DNA from: Ignavibacteriota bacterium | GTDB taxonomy: Bacteria > Bacteroidota > Ignavibacteria > Tepidaquicellales > Tepidaquicellaceae | Assembly: GCA_016218085.1 (NCBI GenBank) | Contig: JACREY010000008.1 | Location: 186,001-250,000 of the forward strand | Direction: 5' to 3' | Length of the DNA: 64,000 nt | Part shown: in pieces, positions 716 to 61,990 of the stretch | How positions within the stretch are numbered: the first letter of the stretch is position 1 | Layout: every line of letters starts with the position of its first letter | Notes under the pieces: generated by a model | What the model was told of the DNA's origin: nothing | The model's database searches: none | Seen by the model: the letters and a program-made list of their open reading frames with translations, nothing else | Program-made: the position numbers and the translations under genes

Positions 716-3031
716 ATGAAAAAGAAAATAAAATATTTACCACTACTGCTATTATTTGCTCTGTTCTCCTATATAGTGGTTGCAAATATAATGACCTGGC
801 ATGTACTCACACTTCAGCAGATACAAACCGTATCTAATGATTCATTACAATATGGAAAAGACTGGTCACCAAGGATAGGGGATTCAGTTCAGTTTACTTG
901 TCGAGTTGTTGCACCACCGCAAGTATATATTGGTGGAGTATACCGTTCATTATTAAGAGGCAGTGACAGCTATACCTGTTATGCACAGGATACAGCAAGT
1001 GGAGTATTTGGTGGAATTGTTATTAGAAAATCAGGTAGAGTAACCAATACAAATTTACAATATGTTGATACCGGAAACATAATAACTGTAAAAGGTATTG
1101 TTCAGGAATTCTGGTCAGCTAGTCCTAATACGCCTTGGCCTAATAGAAGTAAATCAGGATGGTTAACTCAAATTGCACTTGATTCTTCTGGTCCAATTAC
1201 TATCAACTCTATTGGAGGCAGCAGACCGGTTCCAAAACTTGTGAACATTAACGATTTTGCAATAGGTGATTATCCTAATCCAGGTGGTTCTATAAACTAT
1301 GTAGGCGGGGAAAAATATGAAGGGATGTATGTTGAAATTAGAAACGTAACAGTAGGACCCGGGCTTGTTAGCAGACAGCCCTGGAGTATTGTGGACGGAA
1401 ACGGAAATAAATTATATGTAAGAGATTTTTCTAATTTTTATTCAACCTCTCCCTCACCATCAACAGATACGCTAAGACCCTGGTCGCATCCCGCACAAGG
1501 TACTATTGTTAATTACATTAGAGGAGTGATAATCAATACAAATAGCGAAGGTGTACTAGGGAATCAGCTTCCATATGCAATTGTTCCTATTTATCCTAAT
1601 GACTTAAGTTTAGGCGGTGTACCGCCTCAGCTTTCCGGTCCTAATAAAACTCCCGGCGTTCCTACACCGGCAGACAGCGTTTCTGTAAACGTAACTATAC
1701 AAAGTAATACAACGGTAACAAACGCGAGCGTATATTACAGGATTAATGGCGGAGCATTTGTAAATAAACAAATGAATCTGGCAGGAGGAAATATTTATGC
1801 TACAAAATTACCGCCAACTGCATTAAATAATCTGGTCGAATATTATTTCAGTGCAACAAATACAACAGGATTAACAAGATTGTTACCTTCTGATACTTCG
1901 ATATCAAAATTATTTTATAAAGTTAAAGCTTCAGACTCATTATCTATACAGGAAGTTCAGTATTGCCCGAATAACGGCGGACACTCAGGATACGAAAATG
2001 CTATTGTCAGAGGCATTGAGGGTATAGTAACAGCTGATACGATTGATTTCAAGAATTATTCATACACATCCTGGGGTGGTACTGTTTCAGCTCCTCCCAG
2101 GGTTATTATACAGAACGGAACAGGTCCTTTCAGTGGAATCTGGATTGCAGGTTCACCATCGGACCAATTGAGAAAAGGACAGAAAGTAAGGGTATCCGGT
2201 ACTGTTACTTACAGCTTTGGAATTAATCAGATTATGACTGCTGTACCTTCAGATGTTCAGATTCTTTCAACGGGTAATCCGCTTCCTGCACCGCAGATAC
2301 TAACGGCTGCAGTGCTTGCAAATTATAAATCAGGTGGAGACACTACGATTAAAAAATGGGAAAGTGTTCTCGTAAAAATTAATACACCTGTCTGGATTTC
2401 ATGTATCAATTTGGCAAGAGGTGTTGCTTGCACTTCTCACGAAACTCTTCGTGATTCTATATTCAGAAGAAATTTCGGTGAGTTTAGTGTTGTTGATTAC
2501 ACAAATACCGAAGCAAGAATTATGCTTCCAGGTGCTGGACCTACATATACTGGTGGACCTGGTCACACATACTACAATAATTGGGATTCATTAAATTTAC
2601 CTGGCAGAACATTACTTACACAGAATGATTCAATATCATTTATACAGGGAATATTATATTATGCGTACAGTAATTATAAAATCTGTCCGAGAAGTAACTC
2701 TGATTTTGGAACTGTGACACCTGTAGGAATAAAACACATTGAGGGTGTTGTTGAACAATTTAAATTAAACCAGAATTACCCGAATCCATTTAACCCGGTA
2801 ACAAGGATAGGATTTAATTTGCCAATGTATTCAAAAGTCGAAGTTAGAGTCTATGATGTACTTGGAAGACAGGTACAGACACTTGTTAATGAAAATATGA
2901 ACGCCGGAAGTTTCTTAATTGACTTCAACGGTTCGGATTTTGCCAGCGGAGTTTATTTTGTAAGAATGACAGCTATCGGTAAAGACGGAACAAACTTTGC
3001 TGATACAAAGAAAATGTTGTTAATTAAATAG
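716..3031 (+). CDS. secreted OB-fold-containing protein with type IX sorting domain
   Basis: A 771-residue protein with a hydrophobic N-terminal export signal (residues 5-25). Two regions, about 50-150 and 430-520, look like the bacterial OB-fold seen next to secreted nucleases, with a 'GxxVxVxGxV' strand pattern (ITVKGIVQEF, VRVSGTVTY). The C-terminus from about residue 690 is a typical type IX secretion sorting domain with NQNYPNPFNPVT and a terminal KKMLLIK. No catalytic motif is obvious. It probably acts outside the cell; substrate unknown. There is no Shine-Dalgarno sequence, only an A/T-rich leader, as in neighbouring host genes. Confidence 0.8.
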   Translation: MKKKIKYLPLLLLFALFSYIVVANIMTWHVLTLQQIQTVSNDSLQYGKDWSPRIGDSVQFTCRVVAPPQVYIGGVYRSLLRGSDSYTCYAQDTASGVFGGIVIRKSGRVTNTNLQYVDTGNIITVKGIVQEFWSASPNTPWPNRSKSGWLTQIALDSSGPITINSIGGSRPVPKLVNINDFAIGDYPNPGGSINYVGGEKYEGMYVEIRNVTVGPGLVSRQPWSIVDGNGNKLYVRDFSNFYSTSPSPSTDTLRPWSHPAQGTIVNYIRGVIINTNSEGVLGNQLPYAIVPIYPNDLSLGGVPPQLSGPNKTPGVPTPADSVSVNVTIQSNTTVTNASVYYRINGGAFVNKQMNLAGGNIYATKLPPTALNNLVEYYFSATNTTGLTRLLPSDTSISKLFYKVKASDSLSIQEVQYCPNNGGHSGYENAIVRGIEGIVTADTIDFKNYSYTSWGGTVSAPPRVIIQNGTGPFSGIWIAGSPSDQLRKGQKVRVSGTVTYSFGINQIMTAVPSDVQILSTGNPLPAPQILTAAVLANYKSGGDTTIKKWESVLVKINTPVWISCINLARGVACTSHETLRDSIFRRNFGEFSVVDYTNTEARIMLPGAGPTYTGGPGHTYYNNWDSLNLPGRTLLTQNDSISFIQGILYYAYSNYKICPRSNSDFGTVTPVGIKHIEGVVEQFKLNQNYPNPFNPVTRIGFNLPMYSKVEVRVYDVLGRQVQTLVNENMNAGSFLIDFNGSDFASGVYFVRMTAIGKDGTNFADTKKMLLIK

Positions 3032-22555: not shown

Positions 22556-22628
22556 GCTAGCGTAGCTCAGTTGGTAGAGCAGCTGATTCGTAATCAGCAG
22601 GTCGGGGGTTCAAATCCCCCCGCTAGCT
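22556..22628 (+). tRNA. tRNA-Thr (anticodon CGU)
   Basis: A complete cloverleaf. The acceptor GCTAGCG pairs with CGCTAGC, the anticodon stem is GCTGA/TCAGC and the loop TTCGTAA gives anticodon CGT at 22589-22591. The T-arm is GGGGG TTCAAAT CCCCC. The CCA end is not encoded. The 3' end is the probable integration site of the prophage, because the genome changes character here and an integrase gene reads toward it. Confidence 0.96.
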
Positions 22629-22639
22629 CAAATGAAAAT

Positions 22640-24120: not shown

Positions 24121-25080
24121 TTATAACATTTGAAGATAAATTTGTGTCGTACTTAGATTTTGGTGTCCAAGTTTTGACATGATATCATAGAGGGGAACTC
24201 CATGCTTAGATAAAAGGGAAGCGTAACGATGCCTAAGATTATGGAAACCCCATGGCTTTTGCTTTAATTGCCTGACTTTTCTTTCAAGGAACTTTGGCTG
24301 CTCTTTCCAATCGCCAAAAAGTTTTTCATCGCTTTTAAGTACAATATATTTTAGACATAAAGGCTTTGGTAACTTTCTCGGGACAAGATTAGAGTTCTTA
24401 CTTTTTCTTGTGTAAAGAACTATTTCATTACCAATTATATCCTTACCTTTAAATCTCAATGCTTCGGATATACGCGCGCCTGTTTCCATTATGAAGTCTA
24501 TTAAAAGCCTCTGCCTTTTGTCGCAAATTTTTTTAACGGCTTCTATGTCTTCATCTTTAGGAATGTACTTAAGACGCTTTTCAACAGAAAACTGTTTTAT
24601 ACCTATACAAGGATTCTTAATCGATAAATCATGTTTGCTGATAGCATGATTAAATAAAGCCTTATATACGGCAAGCATTGCATTTACTACATAATTATCT
24701 TTTCCTAGATCCTGAAGTTCTTGAGAAGTTTCCAAGAGCAAATCCTCTATATCAGCTCTCTTTACGCTCTCAATTGGAGTATTGCCTAAAGCCTCTAAAA
24801 TGACCTTATAGTAACGTTTATTGTCTTTATAGTAAGACAGGCTCTTTTTGGTCTTAACATAATCCAGGCGAGCGTTTATGGCTTCTAGCAGTGTTATAGA
24901 GGATTGAACAGAATCCGGATCTCTAGCTCTTTTACTGACTTCATCGAAATGCTTATTTTCTGCCTTTCTTGCTTCTATTTTGGTATGGTAAATACATTTT
25001 GAATGAAATGTTTTTCCTTGATATGAAAACTTGTACCAATATCTAATACCTTCTTTAAGTTTTCTTGGATATTGTGCCAT
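24121..25080 (-). CDS. int: tyrosine recombinase (phage integrase)
   Basis: A 319-residue XerC/D-type integrase. An N-terminal AP2-like arm-binding part (WYKFSYQGKTFHSK) is followed by a SAM-like core-binding domain (about 65-165). The catalytic domain has Arg in ETGARISEALRFKG, the HNLRHRYAS box, LGHQNLSTTQIYL and the tyrosine nucleophile three residues from the end. The protein stops soon after the tyrosine, which is short but complete. It has a strong AAAGGAG Shine-Dalgarno. It reads toward tRNA-Thr, as expected for an element integrated there. Confidence 0.93.
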   Translation of the reverse strand: MAQYPRKLKEGIRYWYKFSYQGKTFHSKCIYHTKIEARKAENKHFDEVSKRARDPDSVQSSITLLEAINARLDYVKTKKSLSYYKDNKRYYKVILEALGNTPIESVKRADIEDLLLETSQELQDLGKDNYVVNAMLAVYKALFNHAISKHDLSIKNPCIGIKQFSVEKRLKYIPKDEDIEAVKKICDKRQRLLIDFIMETGARISEALRFKGKDIIGNEIVLYTRKSKNSNLVPRKLPKPLCLKYIVLKSDEKLFGDWKEQPKFLERKVRQLKQKPWGFHNLRHRYASLLSKHGVPLYDIMSKLGHQNLSTTQIYLQML

Positions 25081-26211: not shown

Positions 26212-26523
26212 CTATATCAAGTTAGGATAGTTTTTGCAAACCACATTTCTTAAATCTCTCAGATGATGGAAATAAGGTGCGGCTTTTTCAATGTAGGGAT
26301 TTTGTTCGTCAAATTCTCTAATTATTTCTTCCGATTCAAAAACACATTTTTCAACAATTTCGGCGATAGGTTCAGCTTGAATAAATACAGCTATCAACAT
26401 ATACATAACTTCATGTAATTTATCTTTAATCTGAGGATCATGATTAGTATTTGATAAATCATTCTGGTCTATTGTTGCCTCTAAATCACGAAGTAGTTTT
26501 ACAAAATAGCTTTCTTCCGCCAT
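26212..26523 (-). CDS. hypothetical phage protein
   Basis: A 103-residue, mostly helical acidic protein with a strong AAGGAG ribosome-binding site. No recognised domain. It faces the promoter of the large RNA across about 70 bases. Confidence 0.6.
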   Translation of the reverse strand: MAEESYFVKLLRDLEATIDQNDLSNTNHDPQIKDKLHEVMYMLIAVFIQAEPIAEIVEKCVFESEEIIREFDEQNPYIEKAAPYFHHLRDLRNVVCKNYPNLI

Positions 26524-26595: not shown

Positions 26596-26623
26596 TTGAC
26601 AAATATATTAGGTATGCTATACT
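26596..26623 (+). promoter_or_regulatory. consensus sigma70 promoter with extended -10 for the large RNA
   Basis: TTGACA (26596-26601), a 16-base spacer, then TATACT (26618-26623) preceded by TGC. The spacer end plus -10, TAGGTATGCTATA, is identical to a promoter at 58.7 kb. No gene starts downstream on this strand for more than 1 kb; transcription would begin near 26630. Confidence 0.85.
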
Positions 26624-26649
26624 AATAATATCTTTAAAAAATTAAGTAT

Positions 26650-27166
26650 CTAGAGGAAAACGCAAGTAAAATCATTAACGCATGACTATTAGTTTGGGAT
26701 TTAACATCTCAAACCTACCTTTGCGGGTAGCCTCTAGTAGTCAGCCGTTAGTGATTTTTTGTTTATTTAATTCTGCCTCTCTATTGTTCAGCGACAAACC
26801 ACTTGGTAACAAGTAGGGACATGAGTAATAGAAATTAAAGGTCGGGGGCAGGATTAAGTAAGGAAAAGCAATCATATACTTGTTTCCTAAAATGGAGTGA
26901 TGATGAGTTTTAGCTTTTCTGGTCTATTCACACAGTTTAGATTGGAAGCGGGATTCCGACTTATTATCACTCCGGTTTAGAAAGTAAGATGTTTCGGACT
27001 GTGAGCCGATGAAGATCTAGATATACATTTTGCGAACGAAAGAAGGCCTTACAGCAATAGAAGGCAGTCATCAACTCTTAAATGAGTAAGCTGACATGCG
27101 ATGACATAAGTTCAAAAAAGTGTGATTGCGATATCTGTTGGTCAAACCCAACCATTTTACTTTCTA
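26650..27166 (+). ncRNA. large multi-domain structured RNA (ROOL/GOLLD-like candidate)
   Basis: Long complementary segments fill the whole gap. Helices: 26650-26656/26731-26737 crossing 26670-26688/26738-26756 (pseudoknot); hairpins 26692-26714 and 26715-26730; 26769-26779/26845-26855 stacked on 26780-26790/26822-26832 capped by a GTAA tetraloop stem (26801-26814); 26862-26869/26913-26920 crossing 26894-26906/26961-26973 (second pseudoknot); and 26978-26991/27153-27166 (14 bp) closing a last domain with four inner hairpins. There is no open frame of substance. A consensus promoter precedes it and a tRNA plus terminator follow. Size, phage setting and tRNA neighbour match ROOL and GOLLD RNAs; the class is not proven. 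Confidence 0.85.
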
Positions 27167-27171
27167 TTCTA

Positions 27172-27243
27172 TGGCTTTTAACTCAATGGTAGAGTAACGA
27201 GCTTATACCTCGTAAGTTCTTGGTTCGAATCCAAATAAGCCAA
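27172..27243 (+). tRNA. phage tRNA-Ile (anticodon UAU), weak cloverleaf
   Basis: Acceptor TGGCTTT/TAAGCCA (one T-T mismatch), D stem ACTC/GAGT, anticodon stem ACGAG/CTCGT with loop CTTATAC (anticodon TAT at 27204-27206), five-base variable loop, T loop TTCGAAT with stem CTTGG/CCAAA (one mismatch). CA follows the discriminator base. It would read AUA, a codon favoured by this A+T-rich phage. It begins five bases after the closing helix of the large RNA and probably shares its transcript. Confidence 0.78.
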
Positions 27244-27358
27244 CACAATTCAATTTGCCGGTGGTTAAGTATCTTGACCGGTTTAAAATACAAGAAACTT
27301 CCGAAAAATATTGGTAATCCAATGACCATAAGGCCGTTAAACAATGCCGCAATAAGAT

Positions 27359-27384
27359 CATCACTTCTAAGTGGTGGTTTTTTT
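27359..27384 (+). terminator. terminator of the large-RNA/tRNA transcript
   Basis: CATCACT (27359-27365) pairs with AGTGGTG (27370-27376), with a four-base loop, followed by G and seven T. The unit from promoter to here is about 755 bases. Confidence 0.78.
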
Positions 27385-27545: not shown

Positions 27546-28514
27546 CTAATTATCAGTTATTAATTTAGAAATAAAATGTTCTATTTCTGGATATTTTGTT
27601 ATTAAGAAGTTTTTTATAGCAGGTAAATAATGAGCAATATTCATAGAATGAGATATCATTGCTAAGTAATCTTTTAGATGATCAAACTTAGGATTTGATT
27701 TTTTAAGTTCCGTTTTAAGTGATTCAATATTTAAAACAGCATCATCTTTTTCTTCCTGTTTCATATTAGAATCTGATCTTAAAATACTAATCATTTTATC
27801 TAGCAATGAGAAAAGCTCATCATTGTTATTAATTGTTACATTTTGTGTCGAGTTTGGAGAATCTACGTTCACTTGAACTTGTCCTGATGTATTTGTAATA
27901 AAAACACGTTTATCAGTAATAATAGATGTTGATTTATTTAAATAACTTTTTAGTATGCCTGTTTTACCTCCTTGTTCAACGTGATGTTCTCCTAACCCGG
28001 ATAATGTAAATATATAAGTTCCATCTTCAAGTGTAGTAAGCACCTCAATTAATCCTGTTTTATGTAAAATCGAAAAAATATTTTGAACCTTTTGCTCGCT
28101 TACAAGAGAAAAATAATCCATAAAATCAGTTGATTCTAAGGCTTCATTAAAACCAGTTTCATAAGTCATTTTATAAATTCTCTTCATAAAAAAATCGCAT
28201 AAAGTTTCAACATTCATCTTACCATTCGAAGTTAACTCTGAATATTTTTCCAAAAACAAATACTCATGATACAAAGGAGTTGCCGCCATTGCGTATGATA
28301 ATTGCTGATCTACTTCTTGCCCTTTACCATTTCGATTAGCTAAATCCAGGTCAGTAGTACTAATTGTAAATTCAGAACGAGCTTTAAGAAATTCACCAAT
28401 TTCGGACATAACACCTGCCATAATCGACGCCTGTGTTCTCCCATAATGCGGCAGTTGATTAGAGATTAGTCTAACAACTTTATCGACAAAAGTTTGAGGT
28501 AATAATAATTCCAT
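27546..28514 (-). CDS. unknown protein in the accessory/defence region
   Basis: A 322-residue protein I do not recognise. The N-terminal 120 residues are helical. The middle (about 130-190) looks like a winged helix (NIFSILHKTGLIEVLTTLEDGTYIFTLS). A short beta segment, VQVNVDSPNSTQNVTINN, precedes a C-terminal helical bundle. Such 'linker plus bundle' ends occur in abortive-infection and other accessory proteins. It is divergent from the restriction-modification methylase. An inverted repeat (27516-27552) overlaps its stop. Confidence 0.65.
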   Translation of the reverse strand: MELLLPQTFVDKVVRLISNQLPHYGRTQASIMAGVMSEIGEFLKARSEFTISTTDLDLANRNGKGQEVDQQLSYAMAATPLYHEYLFLEKYSELTSNGKMNVETLCDFFMKRIYKMTYETGFNEALESTDFMDYFSLVSEQKVQNIFSILHKTGLIEVLTTLEDGTYIFTLSGLGEHHVEQGGKTGILKSYLNKSTSIITDKRVFITNTSGQVQVNVDSPNSTQNVTINNNDELFSLLDKMISILRSDSNMKQEEKDDAVLNIESLKTELKKSNPKFDHLKDYLAMISHSMNIAHYLPAIKNFLITKYPEIEHFISKLITDN

Positions 28515-28672: not shown

Positions 28673-29710
28673 TTGAAAACAACTTTAAAAATAAAAAACA
28701 AGAAAGCTGATATACAAAACTATTATAGAAATCGTGGGATTCATTTAATTAATGATGACGTACTTAATCAGTACGATAAATGGGAAAATCCAGTTGTAAT
28801 AATATCAGATGGACCTTATGGAATTGGCGGTTACAAAGGAGATTTTAAAACATTTGAAGAACTACCGGAATTTTATGAACCGCACATAAAAAAATGGTCA
28901 GAAAAATCTAGTCCAATTACAACTTTATGGTTTTGGAATACTGAAGTAGGGTGGGCTACGATTCATCCATTGTTAGTAAAATATGGTTGGAAATTTGTGA
29001 ATTGTCATGTATGGAATAAAGGAATTGGACATATAGCCGGTAATGTAAATGGGAAAAGTATAAGAAAATTTCCTATTGTTACTGAAGTTTGTGTACAGTA
29101 TACAAAAGAACCATATTTTACAATTGGTGAAACTAAAATGACAATGAGAGAGTGGTTAAAATATGAATGGTCTAGGACTGGATTACCGTTTTCAAAAACT
29201 AATGAAGTATGCGGAGTGAAAGATGCTGCAACAAGAAAATATTTTACTCAATCTTGGCTATGGTATATACCACCTGTTGATGCATTTTATAAAATACAAA
29301 GATATGCAAACAAATATGGTGATAAAAATGGAAGGCCATTTTTCTCAGTAGATAGCAAACGACCGATTAACAAAAAAGAATGGTTGAAATATCGATCAAT
29401 TTTTAATTATAAGCATGGAATTACGAATGTATGGCATGAACCTACTGTAAACGGAAAAGAAAGACTAAGGAATGGATATAAGTCACTTCATTTGAATCAA
29501 AAACCAATTAAACTTATGGATATTATTATTAGTTCTTCATCGAATGTTGGTGATATTATATGGGAACCGTTCGGTGGCCTTTGCAGTGGCATATTATCAG
29601 CAGCAGGATTAAATAGAAAAGGATATGCCTGTGAAATTGAAAAAGAAATTTACAATTTTGCTGTAAAAAGACTTACAAATTATTTTAATGAACTCAAATT
29701 ATTTCCTTAA
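28673..29710 (+). CDS. type II DNA methyltransferase (beta-class N6A/N4C)
   Basis: A 345-residue enzyme. The catalytic motif IV is near the N-terminus as SDGPYG (45-50), a variant of (D/S)PPY. The SAM-binding motif lies at the end (WEPFGGLCSGILSAAGLNRKGYACEI, about 300). This IV-then-I order with a central target domain is the beta class, modifying adenine N6 or cytosine N4. It starts with TTG. It converges on and overlaps by 17 bases a nuclease gene, its probable cognate restriction enzyme. Specificity cannot be read from sequence. Confidence 0.87.
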   Translation: MKTTLKIKNKKADIQNYYRNRGIHLINDDVLNQYDKWENPVVIISDGPYGIGGYKGDFKTFEELPEFYEPHIKKWSEKSSPITTLWFWNTEVGWATIHPLLVKYGWKFVNCHVWNKGIGHIAGNVNGKSIRKFPIVTEVCVQYTKEPYFTIGETKMTMREWLKYEWSRTGLPFSKTNEVCGVKDAATRKYFTQSWLWYIPPVDAFYKIQRYANKYGDKNGRPFFSVDSKRPINKKEWLKYRSIFNYKHGITNVWHEPTVNGKERLRNGYKSLHLNQKPIKLMDIIISSSSNVGDIIWEPFGGLCSGILSAAGLNRKGYACEIEKEIYNFAVKRLTNYFNELKLFP

Positions 29711-30569
29711 CCATATTTTCTATTACTTTATCGTCAGATGTTACTAAGCCAGCCCAATCTTTTATTGTTTTATTATCTATTTTAATTTTTAATATTTTAC
29801 TTTTAAATTCTTCAAGTTCTTTATGCTCAATTCTGTCCATTTTTGCGAAATTTGTATCAAGACGATACGAATATTTACCTAAAAGAGTTTTTATTTTTGC
29901 TTGATATTCTTTTGAACTATTAAAAACTTTACCGTCTTTACCCCAAGATAGAACTTCCTTTTCCGCTTTAGCAAAGTCACTTGCTGAATCTTGAAATTTA
30001 TAACCGTTAGTATTAGTTTGTTGTAAATTTTGTGTTCGAGATGATGTATCTTCGGGTTCAAAAACTAAATAATCAGGTGGATTATGATAATGTTTATCTC
30101 TTGATTCAGCAACACTTTTTGCAGAACCAATCCAAACATCAATAATTTTAGGTTTACCATAAATTAGAAACTCCGGTAACCAAGCTACTAATGCTACATT
30201 TATTTGATTATTATCAAAATGACTTACACTGTCTTTAAAGCGTGCTGTTATTTCTGTAGCCAAAGGAAACCATGTTTTAATTTCTATACCCGGTTGTGGC
30301 TCTAATTTACTTTTAAATAATGCATCTGGAAAACCCGGGTCTTGTCTGATCCAAACACCAAGACCTTTCCAATCTAAAGAATTTAATTGTTCGATAATTG
30401 AAAACTCAATCATATTTCCAATTAAAGGGGATATTTTAGATATAACTTTTGCTAAATGTTGTCCATAAGCTAGACTATGAGGTTTTTTAACGTCTAGCAC
30501 ATCAAGAATTTGTCCTTTTAAATTTAATAATTCTTTACATGCTTTGTCTAAAACTTCCTTATAATTCAT
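29694..30569 (-). CDS. type II restriction endonuclease (PD-(D/E)XK)
   Basis: A 291-residue protein with a catalytic PD-(D/E)XK signature: D82 in PGFPDALF and E96-x-K98 in PGIEIKTW. It is surrounded by a beta-sheet pattern, with Glu candidates at 55 and 60 in the preceding helix. The tail-to-tail arrangement with a methylase gene identifies a restriction-modification pair. It would cut unmodified incoming DNA and so protect the lysogen from other phages. Recognition sequence unknown. Confidence 0.82.
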   Translation of the reverse strand: MNYKEVLDKACKELLNLKGQILDVLDVKKPHSLAYGQHLAKVISKISPLIGNMIEFSIIEQLNSLDWKGLGVWIRQDPGFPDALFKSKLEPQPGIEIKTWFPLATEITARFKDSVSHFDNNQINVALVAWLPEFLIYGKPKIIDVWIGSAKSVAESRDKHYHNPPDYLVFEPEDTSSRTQNLQQTNTNGYKFQDSASDFAKAEKEVLSWGKDGKVFNSSKEYQAKIKTLLGKYSYRLDTNFAKMDRIEHKELEEFKSKILKIKIDNKTIKDWAGLVTSDDKVIENMVKEII

Positions 30570-49588: not shown

Positions 49589-49732
49589 TTACCTATTACC
49601 GCTCGCCAAGTCCTCAAACTTGGCAAGGGTAGTCTATGAAACGCCGAATTATCACCTTTTTTCAAAGTGATATTAAATTGTACCTCACAAAAGAGCAACC
49701 CTTTCGGGCGATAATAAGTAACTAATACATAA

Positions 49733-49760
49733 ATTATACCATATTAAAAAACTCCGTCAA
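49733..49760 (-). promoter_or_regulatory. late-operon promoter
   Basis: On the minus strand TTGACG (plus 49755-49760), a 16-base spacer, then TATAAT (plus 49733-49738). It would start a transcript near 49726 with a hairpin-rich leader (stem GCCAAGT/ACTTGGC and others) leading into the terminase and virion genes. Confidence 0.72.
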
Positions 49761-49782
49761 ATAAAATTATCAACTGACGGAG
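49745..49782 (-). terminator. terminator after the primase-like gene
   Basis: CTCCGTCA (plus 49752-49759) and TGACGGAG (49775-49782) form an 8-bp stem, followed on the minus strand by a run of T. The -35 box of the late promoter is built from its distal arm. Confidence 0.82.
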
Positions 49783-49788
49783 TAATAC

Positions 49789-50580
49789 CTACGACTTAAT
49801 AAGGAGATGTATGTCTTGGTCTGACATATCTTTTAACGGCTGTTTAAGAAGAGGGCATTTAATATAAACTGACGATACAAGACGACCGGAAATGTTTTGA
49901 GGTTCTTTATGAAGTAACAGAATTCGCTTGAATTTCTTTAATACTGTTTCTTGGTCTTCTGTCATAGATATTCCCAATAGGGAAGTAACCATGGGATAAC
50001 CAATTGAAGTAAGATGTAGAGCATCAAACGGATCTGTTACTACGATAATAACATCATTGCTTTTCGCTTTATCAGCAAGATAAACCGGTCTTTTAAAACC
50101 TTTCGGGAAAAACCATGAATTATCTTCTTGTTTGAAGCCGACATATCCGACAAGATTTCCGTCATAATCATTTACCTTAAAGGCTATGCGACCTGCAACG
50201 ATACTCCTTTGCTTTACTAACCCGACGTTATATTGCTTTGCCACTTCTGGTGATATTCCTCTTTGTGCAAGATAATCGCAATAATGAAGTTCAAGGTCGG
50301 GGATTTCTTTCTTAACTTCTTTTCCATTAAAGAACTGATCTTTGAGAAACTGTGCCGCTTCTCTTAAACCAATTCCCTTTAAATTAGAATAAAAGTTAAT
50401 CACGCTCCCTTTGGCTTCTTTATCTTTTGGATTAAAGTAAAGGTTTTTATCTATGGTAATAATGAAATCATTTCCGATAAGCTCGCCGTCTTTTTCCTTA
50501 TAGGGTAGGTTAAGAAAATCTAAAAGAGATTTAAATTTTACCTCTTTTGAAATTTCCGCGAAGTTTAAATAATTGTTCAA
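49789..50580 (-). CDS. primase-like protein with degenerate zinc finger and TOPRIM
   Basis: A 263-residue protein from a TTG start chosen because AAAGGAG lies eight bases upstream. Residues 20-90 follow the CHC2 region of DnaG-like primases without its cysteines (LYFNPKDKEAKGSVINFYSNL...LREAAQFL). Residues 175-245 follow the TOPRIM fold, but the catalytic Glu is Thr (VVTDPFDALHL) and the DxD is replaced by HKE (ILLLHKEP). It keeps the fold but probably not catalysis, so it may be a replication initiator or accessory factor. Confidence 0.7.
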   Translation of the reverse strand: MNNYLNFAEISKEVKFKSLLDFLNLPYKEKDGELIGNDFIITIDKNLYFNPKDKEAKGSVINFYSNLKGIGLREAAQFLKDQFFNGKEVKKEIPDLELHYCDYLAQRGISPEVAKQYNVGLVKQRSIVAGRIAFKVNDYDGNLVGYVGFKQEDNSWFFPKGFKRPVYLADKAKSNDVIIVVTDPFDALHLTSIGYPMVTSLLGISMTEDQETVLKKFKRILLLHKEPQNISGRLVSSVYIKCPLLKQPLKDMSDQDIHLLIKS

Positions 50581-60172: not shown

Positions 60173-60197
60173 AACTCCTCCTTTCTTGACGGATATT

Positions 60198-60331
60198 AAA
60201 AAACCGAATGCGCCCGTCTTAACGCTATCCGGCTGTATCTTTAAAGCAACGGAGACCTCGTTCTTATCAAGGTGGAATTTTACCTTGATAGGAAAAGAGG
60301 TGTTGCTAAAATTAAAAAGACTGGATAGCGT
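60198..60331 (-). promoter_or_regulatory. attenuator-like structured leader of ardC-radC
   Basis: Minus strand: ACGCTATCC (plus 60323-60331) pairs with GGATAGCGT (60222-60230), enclosing AGCAAC/GTTGCT, ACCTC/GAGGT and a 9-bp TATCAAGGT/ACCTTGATA hairpin. The 3' arm GGAT is also needed for CCGGAT/ATTCGG (plus 60227-60232 with 60204-60209), which is followed by TTTTTT. The two folds exclude each other, as in riboswitch or protein-controlled attenuators. The ligand is unknown. The gene starts 26 bases after the T-run. Confidence 0.72.
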
Positions 60332-61782: not shown

Positions 61783-61825
61783 AAAATACCTTATTAAGTT
61801 TTATTTTATTAGATATTTTTATTAT

Positions 61826-61949
61826 GCCCGCTTTCGACGCAAGGAGAGCAACCGATTTCGATATAGTACTAAAGTCAATATTATTAGGCTATTCGGAAGC
61901 GGTTGCTGTCCTTTTTGTTGAGGAACGAAACAAAAGACGTAGAGCGGGC
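61826..61949 (-). ncRNA. three-way-junction RNA beside the CBASS operon
   Basis: Closing helix GCCCGCT/AGCGGGC (plus 61943-61949 with 61826-61832). Inside, a 12-position helix plus 61843-61854 with 61900-61911 (one G-G mismatch) extends through TTTCG/CGGAA and ATAG/CTAT, and there is a hairpin TTTTGTT/AACAAAA (about 61913-61937). A promoter-like TTATCA-17-TACAAT with TATGC lies at 61991-62019 on the minus strand. A 45-codon frame on the plus strand (61824-61961) lacks a ribosome-binding site; the symmetry favours RNA. Confidence 0.6.
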
Positions 61950-61990
61950 ACTATATTATAAATTGTCCTTTATATTAAAGGTACAATTCT

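Follow-up and report, generated by a model that had tools for sequence, protein, structure and literature searches.

A large structured RNA encoded with tRNA-Ile(UAU) in an Ignavibacteriota prophage is probably a new large phage RNA

ROOL RNA assembles as an octameric cage, and GOLLD RNA builds up in the course of lytic growth. It is well established that phages can encode large, abundant RNAs close to tRNA genes (PMC12286853, PMC9241854). ROOL and GOLLD, which lie near phage tRNAs, form RNA-only cages, and it has been stated as an open question whether large natural RNAs commonly do so (PMC12286853). The GOLLD of mycobacteria sits in a tRNA cluster, and the same study also reports a rare tRNA-Ile(TAT) (PMC6582537). 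Phage K has large, abundant, unclassified noncoding RNAs near tRNA genes, likened to ROOL and GOLLD by setting only (PMC9241854), and ICP1 has large unclassified noncoding RNAs, without tRNAs (PMC7567579). Here we describe an RNA found in a window of 64,000 nucleotides (the whole stretch of DNA analyzed) from an Ignavibacteriota bacterium. Like the RNAs of phage K and ICP1, it is large, phage-encoded and without an assigned family; those RNAs are known from RNA-seq, whereas this one is known from its sequence and resembles no record of the phage collection in sequence.

The locus lies within a prophage. The 20-mer TGATTCGTAATCAGCAGGTC was found inside tRNA-Thr(CGU) (tRNA 22556-22629), where it spans 22584-22603; a second copy lies 42.8 kb away, at approximately G000:C21 251387, which corresponds to window coordinate 65387. 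Since a repeat of a tRNA-gene segment at the other end of an element is the usual mark of tRNA-gene integration, the two copies delimit a 42.8-kb prophage integrated in tRNA-Thr. The prophage contains an integrase (24124-25080), a terminase and a major head protein, and the chromosome flanking it carries type IX secretion genes, a sign of Bacteroidota or a nearby lineage. A CD-NTase gene followed by a gene for a patatin-type phospholipase effector (62513-64585, the last part in L250) was observed as CBASS cargo at its right end.

Analysis of the prophage revealed a promoter, a strand-specific fold of about 540 nt, tRNA-Ile(UAU) and a terminator (Table 1). With the ends of the element found, these parts form a single unit by sequence, in agreement with an earlier note on this DNA, which had proposed a large structured RNA and a tRNA in one prophage transcript. 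The promoter, which that note called perfect, is a sigma70-type site but only near-perfect, with 11 of 12 positions matching the consensus. It ranked first among 36 promoter-like sites in the 24-31 kb region, although a total of 36 is close to the shuffle expectation, so the site count carries no meaning. As placed from the promoter, transcription is expected to start at about 26629-26632. A near-twin of the promoter, sharing a 36-nt pattern, recurs at 58722-58687 (- strand), 5' of a phage early gene in the prophage. The pattern had 0 matches in shuffles of the window, which is not a blind test because the pattern was derived from both its sites. Promoters of similar style were observed in the related viral contigs L012 and L018. 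Both copies of the word TTAAGTATCT that the window contains fall inside the unit, one in the leader (26642-26651) and one in the gap between tRNA and terminator (27265-27274); the word was as frequent in 4 of 100 shuffles.

Table 1. Predicted features of the RNA-tRNA unit (window positions; P, pairing probability; MFE, minimum free energy fold)
Feature	Position	Strand	Remarks
Promoter	26596..26623	+	-35 TTGACA 26596-26601, 16-nt spacer, extended -10 TG-C-TATACT (TATACT 26618-26623)
Structured noncoding RNA, ~540 nt	26632..27171	+	5' end placed from promoter, 3' end from tRNA 5' end
Leader strand CUAGAGGAAAACGCAA	26650..26665	+	pairs with 26721-26737 (candidate pseudoknot, collinear 7 + 5 bp)
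Alternative leader helix in MFE	26654-26668/26877-26888	+	P ~0.95
5' domain	26668..26758	+	13-bp and 9-bp helices, two hairpins; P 0.94-0.99
13-bp helix, 5' domain	26668-26680/26746-26758	+	11 bp of 13 in MFE (26670-26680/26746-26756)
9-bp helix, 5' domain	26683-26691/26735-26743	+	
Two hairpins, 5' domain	26692-26714, 26715-26730	+	
Long arm	26762..26862	+	18-bp helix, 11-bp helix, GUAA tetraloop stem; P 0.88-1.00
18-bp helix, long arm	26762-26779/26845-26862	+	
11-bp helix, long arm	26780-26790/26822-26832	+	
GNRA (GUAA) tetraloop, long arm	26806-26809 on stem 26801-26805/26810-26814	+	
Linker strand GCAAUCAUAU	26868..26877	+	pairs with 27120-27129 in 3' domain; long-range pseudoknot candidate, 10 bp, some G-U
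16-bp hairpin arm	26894..26973 (26894-26909/26958-26973)	+	P 0.98
3' domain	26978..27166	+	closing 14-bp helix 26978-26991/27153-27166, P 0.99
tRNA-Ile, anticodon UAU (tat)	27172..27244	+	Rfam 59.5 bits; without encoded CCA
Intrinsic terminator	27354..27381	+	12-bp stem, loop 4, then T run

The fold of the RNA exceeds chance. Its minimum free energy (MFE) was -173.4 kcal/mol, whereas shuffles averaged -121.05 (sd 5.64; z -9.28) and 0 of 100 folded as well; the antisense strand of the same interval reached a z of -3.07. The energy excess over shuffles, -50.7 kcal/mol, was the strongest in the window, where the other 540-nt stretches (n = 118, both strands) had a mean excess of -3.7 kcal/mol (sd 7.8, extreme -30.4). 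An unusual fold energy on its own does not prove that a structure is under selection. No sense ORF in the interval is longer than 44 aa, which bears out the view that no protein gene is present, and an Rfam scan of the interval gave no family match. A real structured noncoding RNA at this interval is, in our judgment, very probable.

The helices listed in Table 1 are thermodynamic predictions on one sequence, with a pairing probability of 0.88-1.00 for the main ones. The earlier note had described about 520 bases of interlocking helices, and the sense-strand z together with the recovery of the 11-, 13- and 14-bp helices and the GNRA tetraloop stem agrees with this description. Both of its pseudoknots were found as candidates that pair better than most shuffles. 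The leader duplex (-18.3) was equaled by 1 of 1000 shuffled leaders. The linker duplex has -11.2 kcal/mol, against a cost to the MFE of 6.8 kcal/mol for leaving both of its strands unpaired, and was equaled by 6 of 1000 shuffles. However, the leader pseudoknot competes with the alternative leader helix of the MFE; the two are mutually exclusive, so not all of the drawn helices can coexist. RNA thermodynamics suggests that the leader may switch between the local pseudoknot and this domain-closing helix, and that the 5' and 3' domains would be linked by the pseudoknot of the linker strand.

The tRNA starts 5 nt past the 14-bp helix, and the unit ends in a 12-bp stem and a run of T, so the tRNA "five bases later" and the terminator of the earlier note were both present; no strong terminator was found between the RNA and the tRNA. 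RNase P generates the 5' ends of tRNAs. Host RNA polymerase would read the sigma70-type promoter, which appears to belong to the phage's own promoter set, and a single transcript would comprise the large RNA, the tRNA and the terminator. As expected from tRNA biology, RNase P would then cut at 27171/27172, by which the large RNA would gain a fixed 3' end and the tRNA would be freed, and both would accumulate. Where its acceptor stem meets the T stem, the tRNA has two non-standard pairs, and these mismatches make its recognition by RNase P uncertain. Formation of the 3' end of the large RNA by RNase P is nevertheless likely.

Relatives of the RNA were sought by DNA search and with a covariance model. 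The DNA search of 99 relatives' genomes, including its own, returned one 32-nt chance match besides the RNA itself, and there was no relative in 50,697 phage records, 72,556 plasmids or 21 terminase-related viral records. The covariance model R1, built from one sequence (the 5' domain, 26646-26762) and of limited reach, detected only the RNA itself in three genome samples that overlap (391 of the class, 44 of the order and 396 of the phylum) and in 90 terminase-linked genomes or records. A match to R1 in G212 (27.5 bits) was rejected as a palindrome with an equal score on both strands. The homologue collection for which the earlier note had called therefore yielded no homologue; because R1 derives from a single sequence and its scan was confined to genome samples and terminase-linked records, this does not prove that relatives are absent. 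The protein products of the integrase gene, of 26215-26523 and of the convergent gene 27546-28514 (protein 27549-28514) had no relatives in the viral contigs, and the major head protein matched nothing in 390 further genomes of the class.

One viral contig, L012 (IMGVR_UViG_3300006927_000100), encodes a terminase 59% identical to that of the prophage. Its intergenic element at 1700-2085 resembles the RNA in having a similar promoter, the same 10-nt leader word AATTAAGTAT and a strong fold (z -6.2), but it has no significant similarity to the RNA beyond promoter and leader, and its locus is without a tRNA. A two-sequence consensus fold of the RNA and this element contained zero pairs. In L239 (2341-2600) and also in L221, a similar promoter and leader are followed by repeated GAACTGAGTTC hairpins; these look-alikes were rejected as GAACTGAGTTC repeats of an unrelated phage. 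Other folded elements were observed in the course of the analysis. The regions 5017-5225 of L012 and 2075-2285 (- strand) of L201 are noncoding stretches of about 200 nt with an elaborate fold, 98% identical to each other, and that of L012 had no Rfam match. In the prophage, a promoter-like TTGACG/TATAAT followed by about 140 strongly folded nucleotides lies 5' of the small terminase gene (49600-49790, - strand), with a folded element at the equivalent position of L018 (7530-7950), and the intergenic regions 61825-61960 (+) and 60180-60290 (+) have strong folds (z -7.0 for the first and -6.3 for the second, per 200 nt).

The earlier note had raised membership in ROOL or GOLLD. The Rfam check did not support this: the ROOL (RF03087) and GOLLD (RF02032, with its conserved 3' region) models gave no match to the RNA interval up to E = 10 and none in the host genome. 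Under the same cmscan settings, the divergent ROOL of L. salivarius pMP118 scored 130.4 bits over 574 positions, whereas the GOLLD scan had no positive control, which makes its null result weaker than that for ROOL. The RNA, which is noncoding, several hundred nucleotides long, folded beyond chance, under its own promoter and in a prophage beside a tRNA, therefore belongs to the large phage RNA kind and to no family that the models recognize. A very divergent ROOL or GOLLD beyond the reach of the Rfam models is improbable, despite the likenesses. ROOL shares with the RNA a phage or prophage location often adjoining tRNA genes, a similar length (about 520-660 nt), pseudoknots and a noncoding nature (PMC12286853), and the RNA has a GNRA loop. 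GOLLD is likewise large and multi-domain, is located in phages or prophages within or beside tRNA genes, and has the mycobacterial association with a tRNA cluster and a study reporting tRNA-Ile(TAT) (PMC6582537). On the other hand, a ROOL as divergent as the control was readily detected, and the ROOL consensus closes both ends by a long helix, with further long-range helices, whereas the fold predicted here from one sequence has sequential domains without an end-to-end helix. Many GOLLD members exceed 800 nt, so that the RNA is about 300 nt shorter, and its tRNA lies downstream rather than internally.

Other explanations place the function of the locus elsewhere. The RNA could be a structured leader serving solely the control or processing of the tRNA, with the tRNA as the product and the RNA as a by-product. 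Nothing in the unit but the tRNA looks like a gene, and the lack of a strong terminator between RNA and tRNA would fit such a leader, as would the use of AUA, the codon that the tRNA decodes, which is slightly commoner in phage early genes than in host genes (35.0 vs 27.4 per 1000 codons). However, AUA is also a frequent codon in the host and is rarer in phage structural genes (22.8 per 1000), and an elaborate fold of 540 nt is far beyond the needs of tRNA processing; we consider this explanation rather unlikely. A partnership with a neighboring defense cargo gene, which we judge very improbable, is suggested by the autonomy of the unit and its cargo-like surroundings. The left cargo region contains, 1.3 kb downstream of the unit, a type II pair of DNA methyltransferase and restriction enzyme (28673-30569; PADLOC REase_II, 1.8e-49), the convergent gene has a weak PADLOC match to the phage-defense candidate PDC-M14B (2.8e-8), and CBASS lies at the opposite end of the prophage. 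To our knowledge, such an RNA is required neither by type II restriction pairs nor by CBASS. No match to an RNA-binding family passed the cut-off of that family, and the AlphaFold model of the convergent gene product (pLDDT 37.8) was uninformative. Finally, since the sequence is an orphan and long hairpins can come from inverted repeats, the interval might be a remnant without function, or DNA that is palindromic by chance, such as old mobile-element debris, with a very stable fold. The strand asymmetry (z -9.3 vs -3.1), the G-U pairs in the sense helices, the promoter and terminator in register and the tRNA at the exact 3' edge all argue against this, as does a fold composed of numerous distinct helices instead of a single palindrome, and such an origin is highly doubtful.

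On balance, we favor as probable an autonomous phage RNA-tRNA unit, in which RNase P would make the 3' end of the RNA at the tRNA and the RNA may be a stable structural RNA. This role is assigned purely by its analogy to ROOL and GOLLD; the RNA would be neither message nor antisense, and possibly a homo-oligomer through loop and tetraloop contacts. A structural or oligomeric role is put forward only tentatively, with oligomerization itself a possibility. A stable structural role is thus our leading guess, and the leader serving the tRNA is its main rival.

The feature is real and unusual, probably representing a new large phage RNA, known from one sequence. It is conceivable, as a speculative proposal, that it represents a new class of large phage structural RNA, unrelated in sequence to ROOL and GOLLD and separated by RNase P from a co-transcribed tRNA, which may form an RNA-only multimer. 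If this is true, a large RNA of independent origin that shares this setting, in a Bacteroidota-like host, would suggest that RNAs of the kind arose in phages more than once, and the order of RNA then tRNA would itself be informative on the making or use of such RNAs.
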